The notes under the pieces: model-generated
The model's input: the letters and a program-made list of their open reading frames with translations, nothing else
What the model was told of the DNA's origin: nothing
Database searches by the model: none
Origin: an uncultured Chlorobiaceae bacterium
GTDB taxonomy: Bacteria > Bacteroidota > Chlorobiia > Chlorobiales > Chlorobiaceae
Length of the DNA: 64,000 nt
Direction of reading: 5' to 3'
NCBI GenBank assembly: GCA_903939765.1
Contig: CAJAIK010000087.1
Coordinates: forward strand, 1 to 64,000
Part shown: positions 32,458 to 51,711 of the stretch, piece by piece
How the letters are laid out: each line of letters opens with the position of its first letter
Position numbering within the stretch: the stretch's first letter is position 1
Program-made: the position numbers and the translations under genes

Positions 32458-32602
32458 ACACCTTCCTGTAAAATCCACCGCACACCCGTCTCCTCACTCC
32501 TCACCGGCCGGCATACCATCTTTACGGTATATTTATGGTATACGCTTGGAAACCTTGAAAACATTCCGCTTTATTAACAATCGTGAACCAAACAGAGAAA
32601 AC

Positions 32603-32701
32603 ATGCACACGCTAACTGTAAATAATTTGGTCTGCTGCGGCACCTCTTGCTGTCGTATAAGCAATGTCGCTGACATGAGGATATACGAGTGTAACAGGTA
32701 A
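32603..32701 (+). CDS. Cysteine-rich leader peptide of the sulfate transport operon
   Basis: Small ORF of 32 codons with the core NNLVCCGTSCCRIS: four Cys codons within six positions (tgc tgc ... tgc tgt), and a fifth (tgt) near the end. It ends 23 bases before an intrinsic terminator (32725-32762), and the sulfate-binding-protein gene follows at 32815. This is the arrangement of an amino-acid attenuator: ribosomes stalling on Cys codons when charged tRNA-Cys is scarce would favour read-through. The ORF, codons and terminator are seen; the regulation is inferred. The ribosome site is weak (AGAGAAA), and I found no clear antiterminator pairing by eye. Confidence 0.6.
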   Translation: MHTLTVNNLVCCGTSCCRISNVADMRIYECNR

Positions 32702-32724
32702 CACCAGAGAGCATTTTTGCCTTT

Positions 32725-32762
32725 GCCGGTTCCTGACACCATGGGGGAGCCGGCTTTTTTTA
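32725..32762 (+). terminator. Intrinsic terminator/attenuator before the sulfate-binding-protein gene
   Basis: Nine-pair stem GCCGGTTCC / GGAGCCGGC (one G-U pair), loop of about 12 bases, followed by seven T. It lies between the Cys-rich ORF and the operon with no other gene upstream on this strand to terminate except the AhpD-like gene, so it probably acts as an attenuator. Confidence 0.75.
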
Positions 32763-32814: not shown

Positions 32815-33828
32815 ATGAATCTTGCATGGATAAAAAAAATCACCATTACGGCATCATTGATTGCGGCATCCGGACTTCCGGGAACTATCGCTGAAGCTGC
32901 GGTGATAAAACTGCTCAATGTCTCCTATGACCCCACAAGAGAGCTCTATCAAAGCGAAAACGCAGCTTTTGCCCAGTACTGGCAAAAAAAAACCGGGCAA
33001 ACAGTGCAAATCGATCAGTCACACGGTGGTTCGGGAAAACAGGCCCGGGCAGTCATCGACGGCTTGGAAGCTGATGTTGTAACGCTGGCACTTGCCTACG
33101 ATATCGACGCAATCTCCGACAGTAAACTCCTGCCCGCGAACTGGCAGCAGCGGCTGCCGAACAACAGCACACCTTACACATCCACCATTGTATTCGTGGT
33201 GCGGAAAGGTAATCCAAAACACATTACAACATGGGACGACATTGTAAAGCCAGGCGTTTCAGTCATCACCCCTAACCCGAAAACATCAGGCGGCGCACGG
33301 TGGAACTATCTGGCTGCATGGGGCTATAAACAGAAACAGACCGGATCAGCAGTACAGGCTAAAAATTTTGTCAAGGCACTGTACAAAAACGTCCCTGTGC
33401 TTGACACCGGAGCCCGTGGCTCAACACTCACCTTCGCACAGCGCGGCCTTGGAGACGTTCTGCTGGCATGGGAAAATGAAGCTCACCTGATTCTGAAAGA
33501 GTTCGGCTCAGACAAGTTTGAAATTGTTTCACCAGCCATCAGTATTCTGGCAGAACCACCTGTTGCGGTCGTCGATAAAAACGTCACAAAACACGGTACC
33601 CGCAAGCTTGCCGAAGCTTATCTGAACTTCCTCTACACTCCGCAGGCACAGGATATCATTGCACAGAACTCCTATCGGCCCCGTAACCCTGCTGCACTAA
33701 AAAAATATGCGGCAAACTTCCCGAAAATCAAGCTCTTTACCCTGAATGAAGTGTTCGGCAACTGGCGTACCGCCCAGAAAACCCACTTTAACGATGGTGG
33801 CGTTTTCGATCAAATTTATCTTCCCTGA
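32815..33828 (+). CDS. Sulfate/thiosulfate-binding periplasmic protein
   Basis: 337 aa with a Sec signal peptide ending near IAEAA. Shows the family marks [30 protein letters not shown] and [21 protein letters not shown]. It captures sulfate for the CysTWA transporter encoded next. AAAGGAG lies nine bases before the ATG at 32815. Sulfate versus thiosulfate preference (Sbp/CysP) is not decidable here. A strong terminator after it may raise its level relative to the permeases. Confidence 0.92.
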
Positions 33829-33871
33829 AGATCACGATTAGTGGCCAACTAACTGCAGAGCAGCTTGCCAG

Positions 33872-33905
33872 AAAAACGGGAGATGAACCGTATCTCCCGT
33901 TTTTT
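33872..33905 (+). terminator. Intrinsic terminator between binding protein and permease genes
   Basis: Stem AAAACGGGAGAT / ATCTCCCGTTTT, loop of seven bases, followed by more T. It sits inside the operon, 28 bases before cysT, so it probably gives partial termination and excess binding protein. Confidence 0.85.
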
Positions 33906-33933
33906 GCTGTAAAAAGCACTAAAAAAAATTTTG

Positions 33934-34767
33934 ATGACATTGTTTCAAAAAAAGAGACGCAACATTCTGCCAGGGTTCGGTCTCTCGATGGGCTACACGG
34001 TATTCTACCTCTCGGCCATCGTGATTGTTCCGCTGAGCATGATCTTTTTCAACACCATTCCCATGGGATGGGAGCCCTTTATCCATGCTGTGACGGCTCC
34101 CCGTGTGCTTGCATCCTATCGACTGAGTTTTTCTACCGCACTCTTTGCTGCCCTTTTTGATGCCATTGTCGGACTCCTGACAGCATGGGTGCTGGTACGC
34201 TACCGCTTCCCCGGAAAACAGTTTCTTGACGCCCTCGTCGATCTCCCCTTTGCTTTGCCGACCGCTGTTGCCGGTATCTGCTTTGCCACCCTCTACTCCC
34301 CTGTTGGCTGGCTCGGCGAAACCCTGGCAAAATGGAACATTGAAATTATCAACTCACCGACAGGAATCGTGGTGGCGCTGATTTTCATCGGTTTTCCCTT
34401 TGTGGTTCGCACCATTCAGCCTGTACTCGAAGAGGTGGAACAGGAGATTGAGGAGGCGGCGCAGTGCCTTGGAGCAACCCGCTGGCAGACCTTCCGCAAA
34501 ATTCTGCTGCCCCATCTCTTTCCGGCCCTGCTCACTGGCTCAACCCTTGCCTTTGCGCGAGGCATCGGAGAGTATGGCTCCGTGATTTTCATTGCCGGCA
34601 ATCTGCCGATGAAAACCGAGATTGCTCCACTGATGATCATGTCAAAACTTGACCAGTTTGACTACGCAGGAGCTTCGGCCGTCGCGCTGGTGCTTCTCCT
34701 TATCTCCTTTTCCATGCTTCTGCTGCTGAACGCAGTACAGGAGTGGCAACAAAAAGAATACCGTTAA
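33934..34767 (+). CDS. cysT: Sulfate ABC transporter permease CysT (CysU)
   Basis: 277 aa with about six membrane helices. Family motifs: DLPFALPTAVAGI, YSPVGWLG and the EAA loop EEVEQEIEEAAQCLGATRWQTFRKILLP, with ARGIGEYGSVIFIAG. Forms the channel with CysW. A TTG codon directly upstream is an alternative start. Confidence 0.92.
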   Translation: MTLFQKKRRNILPGFGLSMGYTVFYLSAIVIVPLSMIFFNTIPMGWEPFIHAVTAPRVLASYRLSFSTALFAALFDAIVGLLTAWVLVRYRFPGKQFLDALVDLPFALPTAVAGICFATLYSPVGWLGETLAKWNIEIINSPTGIVVALIFIGFPFVVRTIQPVLEEVEQEIEEAAQCLGATRWQTFRKILLPHLFPALLTGSTLAFARGIGEYGSVIFIAGNLPMKTEIAPLMIMSKLDQFDYAGASAVALVLLLISFSMLLLLNAVQEWQQKEYR

Positions 34768-34774
34768 ATAAATT

Positions 34775-35653
34775 ATGCAGAAACCACAAACACCGGAAAG
34801 CGCCCCGATTGTCAAAAAGAGGATCTCTGACCCCCTGCCAGTGCAAATTGTACTGATAGGCGTGACACTGCTCTTTTTTACAGGCTTTATCTTTCTGCCC
34901 CTTGGGCTGGTTTTTGCCCAGGCATTCTCGAAAGGATGGGAGTACTATCTGGAATCCATACGCGAGCCTTACGCGCTCGAAGCCGTAAAACTGACGCTGA
35001 CAACTGTCGCCATTGTTGTGCCACTCAACGCATTTTTTGGTGTCACGGCGGCATGGGCTATTACAAAATTCAATTTCAAGGGAAAAGCGACGCTCAAGAC
35101 CCTGCTGGATCTGCCGTTTGCGGTCTCCCCGGTTATTGCCGGCCTCATTTTTGTGCTGCTTGTCGGCAGTCGCACCCCTTTTGGCTCATGGCTCGGAGAA
35201 CAGGGGATTAAAATTATCTTTTCAACCCCTGGCATTGTTATTGCTACCCTCTTTGTCACCTTCCCCTTTGTTGCGCGGGAGCTGATTCCGCTGATGGAGG
35301 CGCAGGGACGCGATGAAGAGGAGGCGGCCCTCACACTGGGAGCAAGGGGATGGCAAATTTTTGGTAAAATCACCCTGCCCAACATTCGCTGGGGGCTGCT
35401 CTACGGCATGATCCTCTGTAGCGCCCGCTCCATCGGAGAGTTTGGAGCGGTCTCGGTTGTTTCGGGCCATATCCGTGGGCAGACAAACACCATCCCGCTG
35501 CATGTGGAAATTCTTTACAGCGAATACAATTTTGCCGCATCATTCGCCGTTGCCTCAATCCTTGTCTTTCTGGCCCTCCTCACCGTAGGGGTCAAAGTGA
35601 CTCTTGAAAAACAATTTCAGAAAAACAGCTTTCACCATCAGGAACTGCCATGA
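34775..35653 (+). CDS. cysW: Sulfate ABC transporter permease CysW
   Basis: 292 aa, six predicted helices. [40 protein letters not shown] and [15 protein letters not shown] match CysW. Starts seven bases after cysT and overlaps cysA by four bases. Confidence 0.93.
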
Positions 35654-36723
35654 GCATTGAACTTCAGAACATTACCAAAAAATTTACCGGCTACACGGCG
35701 CTCGACAACATCAACCTTAACGTCGCTTCGGGCGAGCTTGTTGCGCTGCTTGGACCCTCAGGATGCGGCAAAACCACCCTCTTGCGTATCATTGCCGGTC
35801 TGGAACTGCCCGATTCAGGAAAAATCATTCTGGAAAACAAAGACACAACAAACCTGCCGCCCCGGAAAAAAAATGTCGGCTTTGTCTTTCAGCACTATGC
35901 ACTTTTCCGCCGTCTGACGGTTTTCGAGAACGTTGCCTTCGGCCTCAAAGTGCTTCCGATGCGTGAACGCCCCTCCCGCAGTGCCATTCAGGAGAGGGTG
36001 GAACATCTGCTGAAGCTGGTGCAGATGGATTGGGCCATCAAACGCTACCCGTCACAGCTTTCGGGTGGACAGCGCCAGCGTGTCGCCCTTGCAAGGGCAT
36101 TGGCCGTCAATCCCAAGGTGCTGCTGCTCGACGAGCCCTTTTCGGCCCTTGATGCCAAGGTACGCCAGGAGTTGCGCCGCTGGCTCCGGAAGCTGCACGA
36201 TGAAATCCATGTCACCAGTATCTTTGTCACCCACGACCAGGAGGAGGCGCTTGAACTGGCCGACCGGATTGTGGTCATCAACAAGGGGCGGATTGAACAG
36301 CAGGGAACGCCACAGGAGGTCTACGATCACCCGGTCAACGCCTTCGTCTATAACTTTCTTGGTAATGTCAACGTCTTCCACGGGCGCATCAAAAACGGCA
36401 AGGTCAGCCTTGGAACCCATCATGTCGATGCACCGGATGAACTGAAGAATACCGAAGAGAGGGCAAGCCAGGCCTTTGTGCGGCCACACGAAATTGGTAT
36501 CAGCAGAATCCGCAGTGCTGAATCCGACCTCGCCGGAACCATCCAGGAGGTGCGCATCATGGGCGGACAAATTGGCCTGAACCTTGCGTGCGAGGGGTTT
36601 GAACACCCGATTGACGCCGAAATTCCAAGAGAGCTCTACCTGAACCTTCAGCTTGCCAAAGGCGAAAAAGTCTTTGTCTCCCTGAACCGGGTACGCGTCT
36701 TTACCGGCGATTATGAGATCTGA
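35650..36723 (+). CDS. cysA: Sulfate ABC transporter ATPase CysA
   Basis: 357 aa. Walker [10 protein letters not shown], signature [16 protein letters not shown], Walker [13 protein letters not shown], switch HDQEEAL, then the C-terminal regulatory TOBE-like part typical of CysA. Powers CysTW. Starts ATGA over the cysW stop. Confidence 0.93.
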
Positions 36724-36740: not shown

Positions 36741-36791
36741 GCCTCCCGATTGCGCGGGAGGCGAAATAGAGGGTTTGGCCTTTAAACCCTC
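36741..36791. terminator. Double hairpin between convergent cysA and cysN
   Basis: Two perfect stems: GCCTCCCG...CGGGAGGC (36741-36762) and GAGGGTTT...AAACCCTC (36769-36791). They occupy the 66-bp gap of the converging operons and probably terminate both. The second overlaps the last codons of cysN. Confidence 0.7.
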
Positions 36792-38589
36792 ATATCTGAT
36801 AGTCGATAATGATCTCCTTTGCCTTAAGAAAAGCCGCAACCAAAGTCACCGCATCGGCTACAACTCCTCCATCGGCCAACTGAAGATCGGGCTGATAGCG
36901 TGAAAAGCTGCTTTCACCCATGTTCACAACAAGAATGTCGTTGGGCTCGTTAAGCAACTTCAACGTTTCGATATCGTAATCGTCCGCATCATCAATGGTG
37001 GTGATAAAAATAAGCCCGGCATCGGTGAGGATACGTGCCAGCTCGCCGATTCTCCGCAGTCGCTCCCCGGCACTATCGGAATGAGAGCCAAGATCAGCAT
37101 CAAGTCCGCGATCAATATTGGCTACACCGAGGTAGTAGGCGTTCATGCCATTTTGAAAGAGCCCCTGCTCAAGCGCTTTGGCCACAGCCCGTTTGCCGGT
37201 GCCCTTGGCTCCTGTAAAAACGATAAACTTGGCCTTGTGGCGGTTGACGGAGGCACGCTGTTCAGCACGAACAAAACCTGCCTCCCAGTTGCTCTCACGA
37301 TCCCGGATATGCTGCTGCAAGAGTGTCTCGCCAACGGAAAGATTTTCGACCACAACACCGCCACCGGCAATTTCAAAATTGTCAACAATAACAAACCTTC
37401 CGGTAGCCTCGCTCACCGCAGTGGTATCGAAGGCGATCGGGCGGGTGGTTTCAAGAATGCACTCACCAACGTCGCGGCAGTCGATCTGCTGTTTGCTTTT
37501 GCTGCTGGTCAAATCGGAAGCGTCGAGGGTGTTGCATATCTCCGCCAGTTTGACCGTTGCCCGTGCTGAACCGATCTTGAGCTTGTACGATTTGTTTCGG
37601 AGCATCGGTGCCCGGCCAACCCAGAAAATATTGACCCTGAAGCGGCTGCCCACCTCCGGCTGGGATTCGCCGGGTTTGACCATGAGTTCACCGGGCCGCA
37701 CATAAATCTGCGTGGCAAGGGTAAACCCGGTTGATTCTCCGGCTGATGCAACATTTTTTTGCTCGGTATTGAACGACTCGACCGACTGGACAACCGATTT
37801 TTTGCCTGAAGGGAGAAAGAGTACCTCGTCACCCACCCGCACTCGTCCGGCGGCAACTGTTCCGGCAACAATGCGCCGATCGTCATTGCTGCGGGTAAAC
37901 TTGTAAATGTCCTGAACCGGAAAACGGAAGGGCTTTTCATGCAACTCCTTCTCGCTGACAAACTGGTCGAGCTGCTCCAGAACCGTCGCTCCCTTGTACC
38001 ACTCCATCCGCTCGGAATGGGAGGCAATGTTGTCTCCCTCGCGGGCACTGATGGGAATAAAGCTGACCGGCGTCACGTTGATTGCTTCAAGAAATGCGGT
38101 GTAATCAGCCTTCAGTTTTTCAAAAACATCCTGGCTGAAACCCACAAGATCCATTTTATTGGCCAGCACCGTCACCTGTTTGACGCCAAGCATTGCTACC
38201 ATCTGGCCATGCCGCTTTGAGTTCTCCTTGATACCTTCGTCGGCATCAATAACGAGAAGGGCCGACTCCGCCCTCGATGCGCCGGTAATCATGTTTTTCA
38301 AAAACTCGATATGACCGGGAGCATCAATGATGATGTAATCACGCGCGGCAGTCTTGAAAAAACAGCGGGCCATATCAATGGTAATCCCCTGCGCCTGCTC
38401 ATCCTTGAGGGCATCGAGCAAAAAGGCATACTCAAAAGGCTTTGAATTCCTTCGGCAACTCTCTCTGACCGCTTCAAGCTTCCCCTGCGGCAAAGAGCCG
38501 GTATCGGCCAGAAGTCGACCAATCACAGTGCTTTTACCATGATCCACATGACCGACAATAACAATATTCATCTGTGCTCGTCCATTCAT
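36790..38589 (-). CDS. cysN: Sulfate adenylyltransferase large subunit fused to degenerate APS-kinase domain (CysN/NodQ)
   Basis: 599 aa. Residues 1-430 are the EF-Tu-like GTPase Cys[29 protein letters not shown]. Residues ~440-599 align with APS kinase and keep the P-loop ([16 protein letters not shown]), but the catalytic DGDN..R motif reads GVANIDRG and the C-terminal half is diverged. The kinase activity is therefore doubtful, in keeping with the neighbouring APS-type CysH, which does not need PAPS. With CysD it makes APS from sulfate and ATP. Last gene of a sir-cysH-cysD-cysN minus-strand operon. Confidence 0.9.
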
Positions 38590-38637
38590 AACATCTACAA
38601 AAAAAAGATTGAGTCACCCACCCTTATCAATTGTCAA

Positions 38638-39531
38638 TTACATGTACCCGTCGCGCCGAAGCGTCTCCAGCCCGCCATCTTCACTGTCCTGGGCGCGGCC
38701 TGAGCGTTCAGCAATGTTTGAAAACTTGCCACTCTTCAGCTCATCAATGATTTCTGGCACCGTTCGTGCATCCGACAGTACCGGATTGGTACAGGGATAA
38801 CAGCCAAGAGAACGATAGCGGATACCCTCACCCTGATTAAAATAGAGAGAGACCACTGGTATCTTTTCGCGCTCGATATATTCCCAGATGTTCTGCTCGG
38901 TCCAGTCGAGCAGCGGGTGAATGCGTACATGGGTACCGGGAGCAAAATCGGTCTTGAACTGGTTCCAGAACTCGGGAGGCTGATCGCCGACATCCCAGAC
39001 GTTATCTTTGTCGCGGGGTGAAAAATAACGCTCTTTTGAACGGCTCCCCTCTTCATCAGCCCTGACGCCGACAATCACACCGGTATAGGGCTCCCTCCCG
39101 TCATCAACCAGATAGCGCCGTTGCTCATGATCCATCCTGTAGCGGGGCCACTCACCGGAGAGCGTATGTTTCAGCGCTTCACTTTTAAGATATTTGCAGC
39201 AGGTTATACGATCGGTATTGCCATCCGGAAAAGTGAGTTTTTCGGCAAGGGCCTCGCTATTTTGACCATAAATCATGTTCAGGTTCCACTCAAGGGCAAA
39301 CCGGTCACGATACGCAATCATTTCAGGAATCTTGTAGTGCGTGTCGATGTGCACCAGCGGAATGGGGACGTGCCCGAAAAAAGCCTTCCGCGCAAGCCAG
39401 AGCATCACGGTACTGTCTTTGCCGATCGACCAGAGCATGCAGAGGCTTTTAAATTCACGGTAGGCTTCGCGGAGAATGTATACGCTTTGTGCCTCAAGTT
39501 TGTCAAGATGATCCATACACTCGTTTGTCAA
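38638..39531 (-). CDS. cysD: Sulfate adenylyltransferase small subunit
   Basis: 297 aa. PP-loop [29 protein letters not shown] and the C-terminal RRDGYM typical of CysD. Adenylylates sulfate, activated by the CysN GTPase. Starts five bases after cysH; an in-frame ATG five codons on is the usual family start (MDHLDKLEA). Confidence 0.94.
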
Positions 39532-39536
39532 GAAGG

Positions 39537-40250
39537 TTACGGTTGTTCACGGTGCAGTCCGCACTCTTTGTGTTCCGGCATTTCCCACCACCAGCGACCA
39601 GCCCGGATATCTTCGCCCGGCTTGATGGCCCTCGTACAGGGAGCACATCCAATGCTCGGGTAACCCTCTGCATGAAGGGCGTTGCAAGGCACCTTGTGCT
39701 GGCGGATATAGTCCCAGACTTCAGCGTCACTCATATCGGCCAGCGGATTGATTTTAAAGAGTCCAAATGACCCATCCCACTCAACCAGCTCAACTCCTGT
39801 TCTGGTTACTGACTGCTCTCGCCGTAAACCGCAGATCCACCCCTTGAGGGTCGAAAGCTTCCCGGCAAGCGGCTCAACCTTCCGTATGCGGCAGCACTCC
39901 CGCCGCAACTCAACACTCTCATAAAAAAGGTTTGGCCCGTAGCGCCTCAACAGTGCTTCAAGCGTGACCTTTTCGGGCACAAGCACCTCAATTTCAATGC
40001 CGTAGCGCTTTCTCGTGGCGTCAATGAGGTCGTAAGTCTCCTGCGGAAGACGCCCCGTGTCGAGGGTAAAAATCGGTATCCGGAGTTGCTCCTTCTCAAG
40101 CATATCGGTAATAACCTGATCCTCTGCACCAAAACTTGACGCCAGTGCACACTCTCCTGCCCCGAAATAGGCGGCGGCCCAGCGCAGAATCTCTTGCGGC
40201 GTTTTGCCAGAGAGTTCATTCTTCAATTGTTCAACAACTTCCCTGCTCAT
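39537..40250 (-). CDS. cysH: Adenylylsulfate (APS) reductase, assimilatory
   Basis: 237 aa. The PP-loop-like region [13 protein letters not shown], the [11 protein letters not shown] and GCAPCTR cysteines (CC...CxxC) that bind a 4Fe-4S cluster and the C-terminal ECGLH active-site Cys identify the APS-type enzyme, not the PAPS-type. Reduces APS to sulfite using thioredoxin/glutathione-type donors. Lies between the sulfite reductase gene and cysD. Confidence 0.93.
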
Positions 40251-40277
40251 AACTCTTTTGATCTTGTTATAGCACCC

Positions 40278-41165
40278 TCAGGCGCCAAGAATCTCCTCCC
40301 TCACCGTCTCTATCCCGATACGATCAATCGTATGGCCAAAACGCTCTTTTTTCCGGCCATGCGTGCGGTAACAGGTCAGGGTTTTCTGGATCAAGTCGTA
40401 CAGCTCCTCCTCGCCCTCAACCAGCTTCTTCAGCACGGTAGCAAAACGGGGAGTCTTGCCCATCGTACCACCGATAAAGAGCGTATAGCCCTGCCTGCCG
40501 ACAACCCACGCCTCTCCGGGGCAATGCTGGGTGCACGCAGTACAGTTGATGCAACTCTCCCTGTCAACCCGGTAATGGTACTCCCTTGTGCCATTGGAAC
40601 CAATCTCGTCACGCACAATCGCTTTGGCGGGACAAAGCGAAAGACAGAGCCGGCAATCACAGCACGACGAGGCAATCCAATCCGGCTCGATGGCTCCCCT
40701 GACACCTATATCATTTTCGTTTGCCTTGGTACAGTTATTGGCGCAGCCCGTTACCGCCATCTTGAATTTTGAAGGAGCCTCCTTATAAAAAAAGCGACGA
40801 TCGAGCTCTGTTGCAATCTTCTTGGTATCTATGACTCCCCACTTACAGGTCGCCTCTCCCGGACAGGCAACAATGACTCGTACCCGGGGGCCGGAAGCCC
40901 CCATTTCAACTCCCGCCTGACTCAAGGCAAGTTGTGCACTCTCCAGATTATCATGATGCACATGATGAATCTCAACGCCCTGACGAGTGGAGAGATGAAC
41001 AACTCCCCGGCCATAGAGTTCAGCAACTTCAGCAATGCTGGCAAGTTGCAGTGCACTCAAATCGCCAGCAACAGCCTTGATGCGCAAAAGATAGTAATCG
41101 TGCTGCTTCTGGCGCAACACTCCAGGACCAGTCACGGCTGTCAAACCAGATTCACGTTCCGCCAT
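40278..41165 (-). CDS. Siroheme sulfite reductase with internal ferredoxin domain
   Basis: 295 aa. A half-size nitrite/sulfite reductase repeat carries the siroheme/4Fe-4S ligands CPGEATC and CANNC, preceded by the STRQGVEIHHV substrate strand. Inserted after it are two ferredoxin motifs, CCDCRLCLSLCP and CINCTACTQHCP. This matches AsrC-like/small anaerobic sulfite reductases; no AsrA or AsrB is next to it. It heads the assimilatory sulfate operon and should reduce sulfite to sulfide. Nitrite reduction is less likely in this context. Confidence 0.85.
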   Translation of the reverse strand: MAERESGLTAVTGPGVLRQKQHDYYLLRIKAVAGDLSALQLASIAEVAELYGRGVVHLSTRQGVEIHHVHHDNLESAQLALSQAGVEMGASGPRVRVIVACPGEATCKWGVIDTKKIATELDRRFFYKEAPSKFKMAVTGCANNCTKANENDIGVRGAIEPDWIASSCCDCRLCLSLCPAKAIVRDEIGSNGTREYHYRVDRESCINCTACTQHCPGEAWVVGRQGYTLFIGGTMGKTPRFATVLKKLVEGEEELYDLIQKTLTCYRTHGRKKERFGHTIDRIGIETVREEILGA

Positions 41166-50279: not shown

Positions 50280-51353
50280 TCAGAAGGTTACTGTTGCATA
50301 CAGTTCTGTGCGAAACAGATCGTTATCTTTGGTTCCGATGGCGTTATTCTCCCTGCTTGCGCGATACCTGATGGTCGGTGTCAAACTGAAGGTTCCTGTT
50401 GCCGATTCATGCACATTAATTTTGTACTGCGCCCAGACGAAGGTGTTGTTGTAATCTTTGTTCCCTTGATCATCCGTGGTCTTGTTGTAGTCGATCCAGG
50501 CAAGCACCGGGCCGGACTCACCCTTTAGTCTGAAAATGTAACCGCTATAGTCATAACTGGTTCCATTATAGGTGTTCCTGTCTGCGGTATAAAATCCACT
50601 GAGTGTGACCTTTGACTTGCCGGCAGGAATGAATGCCTGTGCACCAAAACTGTACGGTGAACGATCGTCACCCAAGTGGGTCAAGGTAACATAAGCCTGC
50701 GGTACAATAGTGACATTTCCAATCGTCGTCTTGTATGACGCCGTAAAACCATAGCCGTCGTTTAAAAGCCCTCTGTCTGCAGTGGTAGTAGAAATGTTGT
50801 CAAAGTTAACGAGAACCGCGTTCAGTTCACCGTTACCAAGCTTGACGCCATAGTTAAAGCCAAACAAACGGTCAAAATGATTGGTCGATATCGGAGTATC
50901 AACAGCATACAATTTTTTACCTTGAGGACCAGTGCCGGGAATAGCGTACAGTGTCAGATCCAGAATCGGGTTGTCAAAGCTTCCGAGAGGAAGACGACCA
51001 AGCGACCAATGGCTGTTTTCACTGTTGTGACCAAAGTAAAATTGCGAAACATCAAGATTGAATTTTTCAGTGTTGTTTTCGGCAACGGTCTGCCAACTGC
51101 CAGCAACCTCTTCATTCTGAATCAACGCCTTGAAGAAGTAGCCATCACCGAGATCAGCCGAAGGTTTCAGGCGAACGCGGTACTGAAAATACTGGTCTTG
51201 AGTTGACGCTTTGTCACCAAACTCATTTTTTGTGTGCCCGAAATCGTCCCTCAAACGAACAGATGCTTCACCACCAATCTTCAGCTCAGCCGATGCTGAT
51301 GATGCGTATGATAAAATTGCAAACATTGCTGCAAGTGATAATATCCTCTTCAT
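50280..51353 (-). CDS. Outer-membrane beta-barrel porin
   Basis: 357 aa from the ATG at 51353, with GGGAGAAAT just upstream. Signal peptide ends SSASA. The rest is alternating hydrophobic strands with aromatic girdles (YFFKALIQNEEVAGSW, GYGFTASYKTTIGNVT, TELYATVTF) and a C-terminal Phe, the outer-membrane insertion signal. Resembles alginate-export/phosphate-selective porin families; the substrate is not predictable. Confidence 0.82.
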   Translation of the reverse strand: MKRILSLAAMFAILSYASSASAELKIGGEASVRLRDDFGHTKNEFGDKASTQDQYFQYRVRLKPSADLGDGYFFKALIQNEEVAGSWQTVAENNTEKFNLDVSQFYFGHNSENSHWSLGRLPLGSFDNPILDLTLYAIPGTGPQGKKLYAVDTPISTNHFDRLFGFNYGVKLGNGELNAVLVNFDNISTTTADRGLLNDGYGFTASYKTTIGNVTIVPQAYVTLTHLGDDRSPYSFGAQAFIPAGKSKVTLSGFYTADRNTYNGTSYDYSGYIFRLKGESGPVLAWIDYNKTTDDQGNKDYNNTFVWAQYKINVHESATGTFSLTPTIRYRASRENNAIGTKDNDLFRTELYATVTF

Positions 51354-51411: not shown

Positions 51412-51452
51412 TAAAAGAAAAAGCCGACTCTCTGAACGAAAAAAGCCGGCTT
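51412..51452 (-). terminator. Terminator-like hairpin in the porin leader
   Basis: On the minus strand AAGCCGGC...GTCGGCTT (one G-U pair) followed by TTTCTTTT, 59 bases before the porin ATG. No minus-strand gene lies upstream (aroK is divergent), so it may attenuate porin transcription or block leftover transcription. Confidence 0.5.
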
Positions 51453-51711
51453 CGAAATAATCAATCCTGAACAGCAGGGCGCTCTATCGACAATCGGTTT
51501 TTCCGCATCTCAACGTTTATACAGCAACAACAGCAGTATGGAATTCTGCCGGTACCGTTCTTCTGTGATCGCAACTGATAGTTCATGGCAAGTGTCGTTT
51601 GATTTACAGTGGCCAATAAAACTCCATATCATTATAAAATCCAAGCATATACCCTATAAATACCGTTAATATGGTAGAGAAAACCGCCCATTGCCCCCCA
51701 TTCGAACAAGA

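Follow-up and report, generated by a model that had tools for sequence, protein, structure and literature searches.

The 64,000-nucleotide stretch of uncultured Chlorobiaceae DNA analysed here (hereafter the window) carries a short open reading frame (ORF) with several cysteine codons in front of an intrinsic terminator and a sulfate uptake operon, which raises the question of whether sulfate uptake in this organism is governed by the supply of charged tRNA-Cys. The classical precedents are the trp and his attenuators of E. coli, in which a short ORF with cognate codons, an intrinsic terminator, and a competing antiterminator precede genes of the same pathway. Leader-peptide attenuation was formerly known only from Proteobacteria and Actinobacteria, to which the Firmicutes were added in 2010 (PMC2965389).

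A cysteine-codon leader and terminator precede the sulfate uptake genes

The leader ORF (MHTLTVNNLVCCGTSCCRISNVADMRIYECNR) occupies positions 32603 to 32701 of the forward strand, from an ATG at 32603 through 32 codons to a TAA at 32699-32701, and is conserved in relatives. Cysteine is encoded at codons 11, 12, 16, 17, and 30, so that two pairs are formed: a first pair (codons 11-12, 32633-32638), whose place varies among relatives, and a second, conserved pair (codons 16-17, 32648-32653), which is the proposed stall site. The terminator (32725-32761) begins 23 nt after the end of the ORF and consists of a 5' arm GCCGGTTCCT (32725-32734), a 3' arm GGGAGCCGGC (32745-32754), and a U-tract (32755-32761), with a stem energy of about -21 kcal/mol; with its loop of 10 nt, it escaped a simple terminator scan limited to loops of 3-8 nt. 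Downstream lies sbp-cysT-cysW-cysA (32815-36723, forward strand), the operon proposed to be regulated. The arrangement described in a first-pass annotation, a 32-codon ORF with Cys pairs just before a strong intrinsic terminator and ahead of sbp-cysTWA, is confirmed by this mapping of codons, stem, and U-tract. In a shuffling test, none of 20,000 shuffled ORF bodies was open with at least five Cys codons and two Cys pairs.

On the other strand, the window encodes sir-cysH-cysD-cysNC (36790-41165), and the organism therefore has genes for assimilatory sulfate reduction. No leader was seen in front of this cluster in the window, and a related promoter element precedes it.

This element was found upstream of the sbp leader as a conserved stretch (..ATACCATCTTTACGGTATATTTATGGTATACGCTTGGAA, 32509-32551, forward strand) that is probably a promoter or operator, followed by TTTATTAACAATCGTGAACC (32570-32589, forward strand), a probable -10 or transcription-start region. 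Similar copies of the upstream element lie near 41310-41295 and 51675-51639 on the reverse strand, and TTTATTAACAATCGTGAACC has a near-identical copy before sir and a similar one before metY. Allowing up to three mismatches, the upstream element precedes 27 of 47 sbp genes with a leader and 8 of 8 leaderless sbp paralogs; four more paralogs have neither leader nor element. With up to two mismatches, TTAACAATCGTTAA is present before 30 of the 47 sbp leaders. The arrangement ACCAT-N-TTTACGGTAT..CTTGG..TTTATTAACAATCGT is common to sir (41311-41236, reverse) and sbp (32509-32589, forward), and is partly present at the porin-like gene described below (51675-51639, reverse). The shared element probably marks a transcription factor regulon that would act in addition to attenuation.

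Cysteine codons and terminator are conserved in the Chlorobiaceae

Relatives of sbp were present in 58 of 86 Chlorobiaceae genomes, and comparison of their upstream DNA revealed the same leader and terminator at about 50 loci that carry an orthologous sbp gene downstream, 45 of which provided the leaders used for statistics. In window numbering, codon 17 encodes cysteine in all 45 leaders (TGT in 38, TGC in 7) and codon 16 in 39, again with both TGC and TGT. Cysteine accounts for 15.0% of the residues in frame, versus 2.3% and 2.7% in the other two frames, which are mostly closed (open in 1 and 11 of the 45 leaders), and the peptide drifts outside its Cys positions. The intrinsic terminator, a strong hairpin with a U-tract, is conserved between leader and structural genes. 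Most leaders have 112-116 nt between the Cys pair and the end of the U-tract (extremes about 101 and 127 nt) and 21-25 nt between the stop codon and the terminator, and the length from start codon to Cys pair varies. The first-pass annotation had proposed a comparison of orthologous leaders and had let its reading depend on conservation of the ORF; both the ORF and its Cys codons, with synonymous swaps, are retained. At one locus (L047:769-917) the sbp leader ORF ends early (MTDKNERQARFCQGAICRVTDET), and the DNA beyond still resembles the usual C-terminal part.

A candidate antiterminator pairs the leader end with the terminator

No clear antiterminator had been seen by eye in the first-pass annotation. 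Folding now provides a candidate, in which the leader end pairs with the 5' arm of the terminator: the predicted 5' strand, GUGU..CAGG-U-AAC (32689-32702, forward), overlaps the stop codon, and GUUCCUGACAC (32729-32739), which overlaps the terminator 5' arm (32725-32734), doubles as its 3' strand. For each leader, we computed the probability that the terminator 5' arm is paired upstream before the 3' arm has been made. It averaged 0.72 when a ribosome was placed on the Cys pair, 0.19 when it was placed on the stop codon, and 0.55 in shuffled sequences. The window's own leader did not exceed its shuffled controls (0.68 vs 0.65). In 40 of the 45 leaders, the upstream strand of the antiterminator is predicted to lie beneath the footprint of a ribosome at the stop codon.

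A consensus fold of the whole alignment gave only a 4-pair stem, and three subclades, set by sequence similarity before folding and without a tree, were then folded separately. In subclade B, the consensus fold was far below the shuffles (z=-3.85, reached by 0 of 60 shuffled alignments), with a strand CCGG(U/C)..GUG pairing with CAC.GGCCGG. Subclade A, to which the window belongs, gave z=-1.19 (8 of 60 shuffles); its pairing of CAGG-U-AAC with GUUCCUG is retained in nearly all nine sequences, with changes on one side only. The fold of subclade C was not significant (41 of 60 shuffles). A protector (1:2) hairpin, which is part of the trp-type scheme and was treated as non-essential to the attenuation mechanism, was not supported in the leaders (0.33 vs 0.34 shuffled). 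The search for competing hairpins that the annotation had suggested thus yielded a candidate antiterminator that is significant in subclade B, weak in subclade A, and not significant in subclade C. Support for it is therefore good in some members of the family but only moderate for the leader in the window.

Further cysteine leaders precede other sulfur genes

The copy of the upstream element at 51675-51639 pointed to a second leader on the reverse strand of the window (MNYQLRSQKNGTGRIPYCCCCCINVEMRKNRLSIERPAVQD, 51461-51586), with five Cys codons (51535-51521) and a terminator (AAGCCGGCTTTTTTCGTTCAGAGAGTCGGCTT plus U-tract, 51418-51452, reverse). The gene behind it (50280-51353, reverse) encodes a porin-like protein, named from sequence features, for which searches of Pfam and NCBIfam gave no match. 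Orthologous leaders contain a run of three or more Cys codons in 21 analysed loci.

A search of the organism's own genome for Cys-codon runs identified a third leader, MKSMTSTIFMMCCCCCLWQHASDSRISEKGL, with a terminator upstream of DUF4395-metY-cysK-cysE, and this leader is kept at 29 of 30 loci. Its position before a cysteine-synthesis operon fits cysteine supply as the putative signal. In the metY leaders, the stall-state pairing probability equals that of shuffled sequences (0.60 vs 0.58). Of 76 genomes compared, 45 of the 54 with sbp have a CC run and terminator in the metY leader, versus 7 of the 22 without (Fisher p=2.6e-5, shared descent ignored); in the second genus, any Cys leader with a terminator was found in 8 of 10 genomes with sbp versus 0 of 10 without, shared descent again being ignored. 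Several metY leaders, mostly from genomes without sbp, have few or scattered Cys codons (L252-L254, L388, L393, L396), possibly reflecting a switch that is degenerating in lineages living on sulfide alone.

Further leaders, partially conserved, were found before genes for a BadF-type activase and an HgdD-like protein (CC run and terminator at 6 of 19 loci), before a radical-SAM trio (5 of 11), and before a NifH-like gene (8 of 25). A CCCC leader and terminator precede the activase and an HgdD/double-cubane-like protein (L174:1113-3267, G000:C117); a CCC leader precedes three variant_rSAM radical-SAM proteins and SsuA-like ABC genes (L440:2179-6264, G000:C99), next to which a second metY-like gene is located; and a CCEC leader and terminator precede NifH-like/NifDK-like genes and SsuA-like transport genes (L441:7735-8610, G000:C114). 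SsuA-like binding proteins are encoded in both the radical-SAM and the NifH-like clusters, and the latter recalls the nitrogenase-like methylthio-alkane reductase. Two other ORFs were judged to be chance occurrences: a CCCC ORF upstream of a SulP permease (G000:C5), whose Cys run lies on the strand opposite a stretch of Gln codons in the neighbouring gene, and a CCC ORF on G000:C51. Outside the Chlorobiaceae, short in-frame Cys ORFs appeared chance-like by inspection among the matches listed from a scan of 84,980 species genomes. The list of leaders was built from pattern searches and may be incomplete.

Probable attenuation by charged tRNA-Cys and its alternatives

Ribosome-mediated transcription attenuation sensing charged tRNA-Cys is very likely the best explanation of the sbp leader, because it accounts jointly for the Cys codons, the terminator, the geometry of masking, and the nature of the target genes; the first-pass reading as a classical attenuator is supported, with Cys conservation and a candidate antiterminator now added. 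From the ORF, its conserved codons, the terminator, the antiterminator geometry, and the regulon genes, all read from the sequence, we infer leader translation, ribosome stalling, and read-through. The leader would be translated during its own transcription. With ample Cys-tRNA, the ribosome would pass the Cys codons, reach the stop codon, and mask the upstream strand of the antiterminator, so that the terminator forms and sulfate uptake is off. With scarce Cys-tRNA, it would stall about 45 nt further upstream, at the conserved pair of Cys codons, leaving the leader end to pair with the terminator 5' arm and the polymerase to enter sbp-cysTWA. Since this geometry would set the switch to off when cysteine is plentiful, the sulfur-acquisition genes are very probably opened only under cysteine shortage.

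Among the alternatives, a TnaC-like nascent-peptide arrest, in which the ribosome is halted by the Cys-rich peptide itself, or by free cysteine inside its tunnel, and not by a lack of charged tRNA, could draw on the partly conserved SGSCR-like C-terminal ending (Cys in 30 of 42 at that position). We consider it improbable, as the peptides differ widely except for cysteine, the C-terminal codons of the sbp leader overlap the antiterminator strand, and the metY and porin leaders have other endings. Similarly improbable is a ligand-binding RNA that acts on the terminator, with the ORF being incidental. Terminator and antiterminator would suffice for it by themselves, and a Shine-Dalgarno-like motif is found upstream of only 17 of 47 leaders, versus 40 of 47 sbp genes. 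However, the reading frame is maintained and its Cys codons persist through TGC/TGT exchanges, and the sbp, porin, and metY leaders have Cys codons and a terminator in common, with no recognisable common fold. T-box RNAs likewise control a terminator in response to tRNA charging; here, Rfam searches at gathering and relaxed thresholds gave no relevant match, T-box included, and a coding ORF is present instead.

A mechanism of the kind put forward for actinobacterial Cys leaders (PMC1262725), with Rho-dependent termination or translational coupling, is very improbable here. In its favour, the Cys leaders of Actinobacteria and mycobacteria act, or were suggested to act, in the absence of an intrinsic terminator (PMC1262725; PMC13236596). 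Against it, a strong hairpin with a U-tract is conserved 3' of the leader, the window has more than 100 nt between the leader stop and the sbp start codon, and most sbp genes have the Shine-Dalgarno motif of their own noted above. That a chance ORF stands next to an ordinary terminator has a negligible probability, common as short ORFs are, because the arrangement recurs at about 50 orthologous loci, stronger evidence against chance than the shuffling test, and before other sulfur genes.

Relation to known attenuators and biological implications

Like the E. coli trp and his attenuators, the predicted attenuator combines a cognate-codon ORF, a terminator, a candidate antiterminator, and downstream pathway genes; it differs in the amino acid, cysteine, in the phylum, Chlorobiota, in the unsupported protector hairpin, and in that uptake and scavenging would be controlled besides synthesis. 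In Rhodobacterales, uORFC-8-2 is a predicted ribosome-mediated attenuator before cysS, in which tandem Cys codons at positions 14-15 vary between UGC and UGU and an intrinsic terminator follows (PMC8632094). It shares with our case the Cys pair, the synonymous swaps, and the intrinsic terminator, but it is confined to cysS and to a single order of Alphaproteobacteria, whereas the leaders described here precede sbp, a porin-like gene, and the metY operon in Chlorobiaceae. In Actinobacteria including Mycobacterium, Cys-rich short leader ORFs without an obvious terminator have been predicted (PMC1262725), and the mycobacterial ones have been associated with translation attenuation and leaderless ORFs (Canestrari 2020, as cited in PMC13236596 and PMC9094748). 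These are also Cys-rich short ORFs before cysteine or sulfur genes; there, the Cys run lies near the stop codon and no terminator is obvious, whereas here the terminator is conserved.

No earlier report of a Cys attenuator in Chlorobiota was found in the open-access literature, a scope outside which most subscription journals fall. Cys attenuators have been described or predicted in mycobacteria and, before cysS, in Rhodobacterales; what appears to be new here is the phylum, together with the target genes and the regulon. Leader-peptide attenuation would thereby be extended to a phylum for which this literature yielded no report.

Our findings suggest that the sbp leader is one member of a predicted Cys-attenuation regulon for sulfur-acquisition genes. 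We lean slightly towards a genome-wide Cys-tRNA attenuation regulon that ranks sulfur sources, comprising sulfate uptake and cysteine/homocysteine synthesis together with the porin-like protein and the reductase clusters. If this is true, the leaders mark the radical-SAM, NifHDK-like, and BadF/HgdD double-cubane-type reductases as sulfur-scavenging enzymes, and they may be used as regulatory tags for enzymes with a likely role of this kind. Uptake of 35S-sulfate shows that Chlorobium phaeoferrooxidans has the capacity for sulfate assimilation (PMC5498476), and attenuation by charged tRNA-Cys would explain the switch to this costly assimilation in phototrophs that usually meet sulfide.
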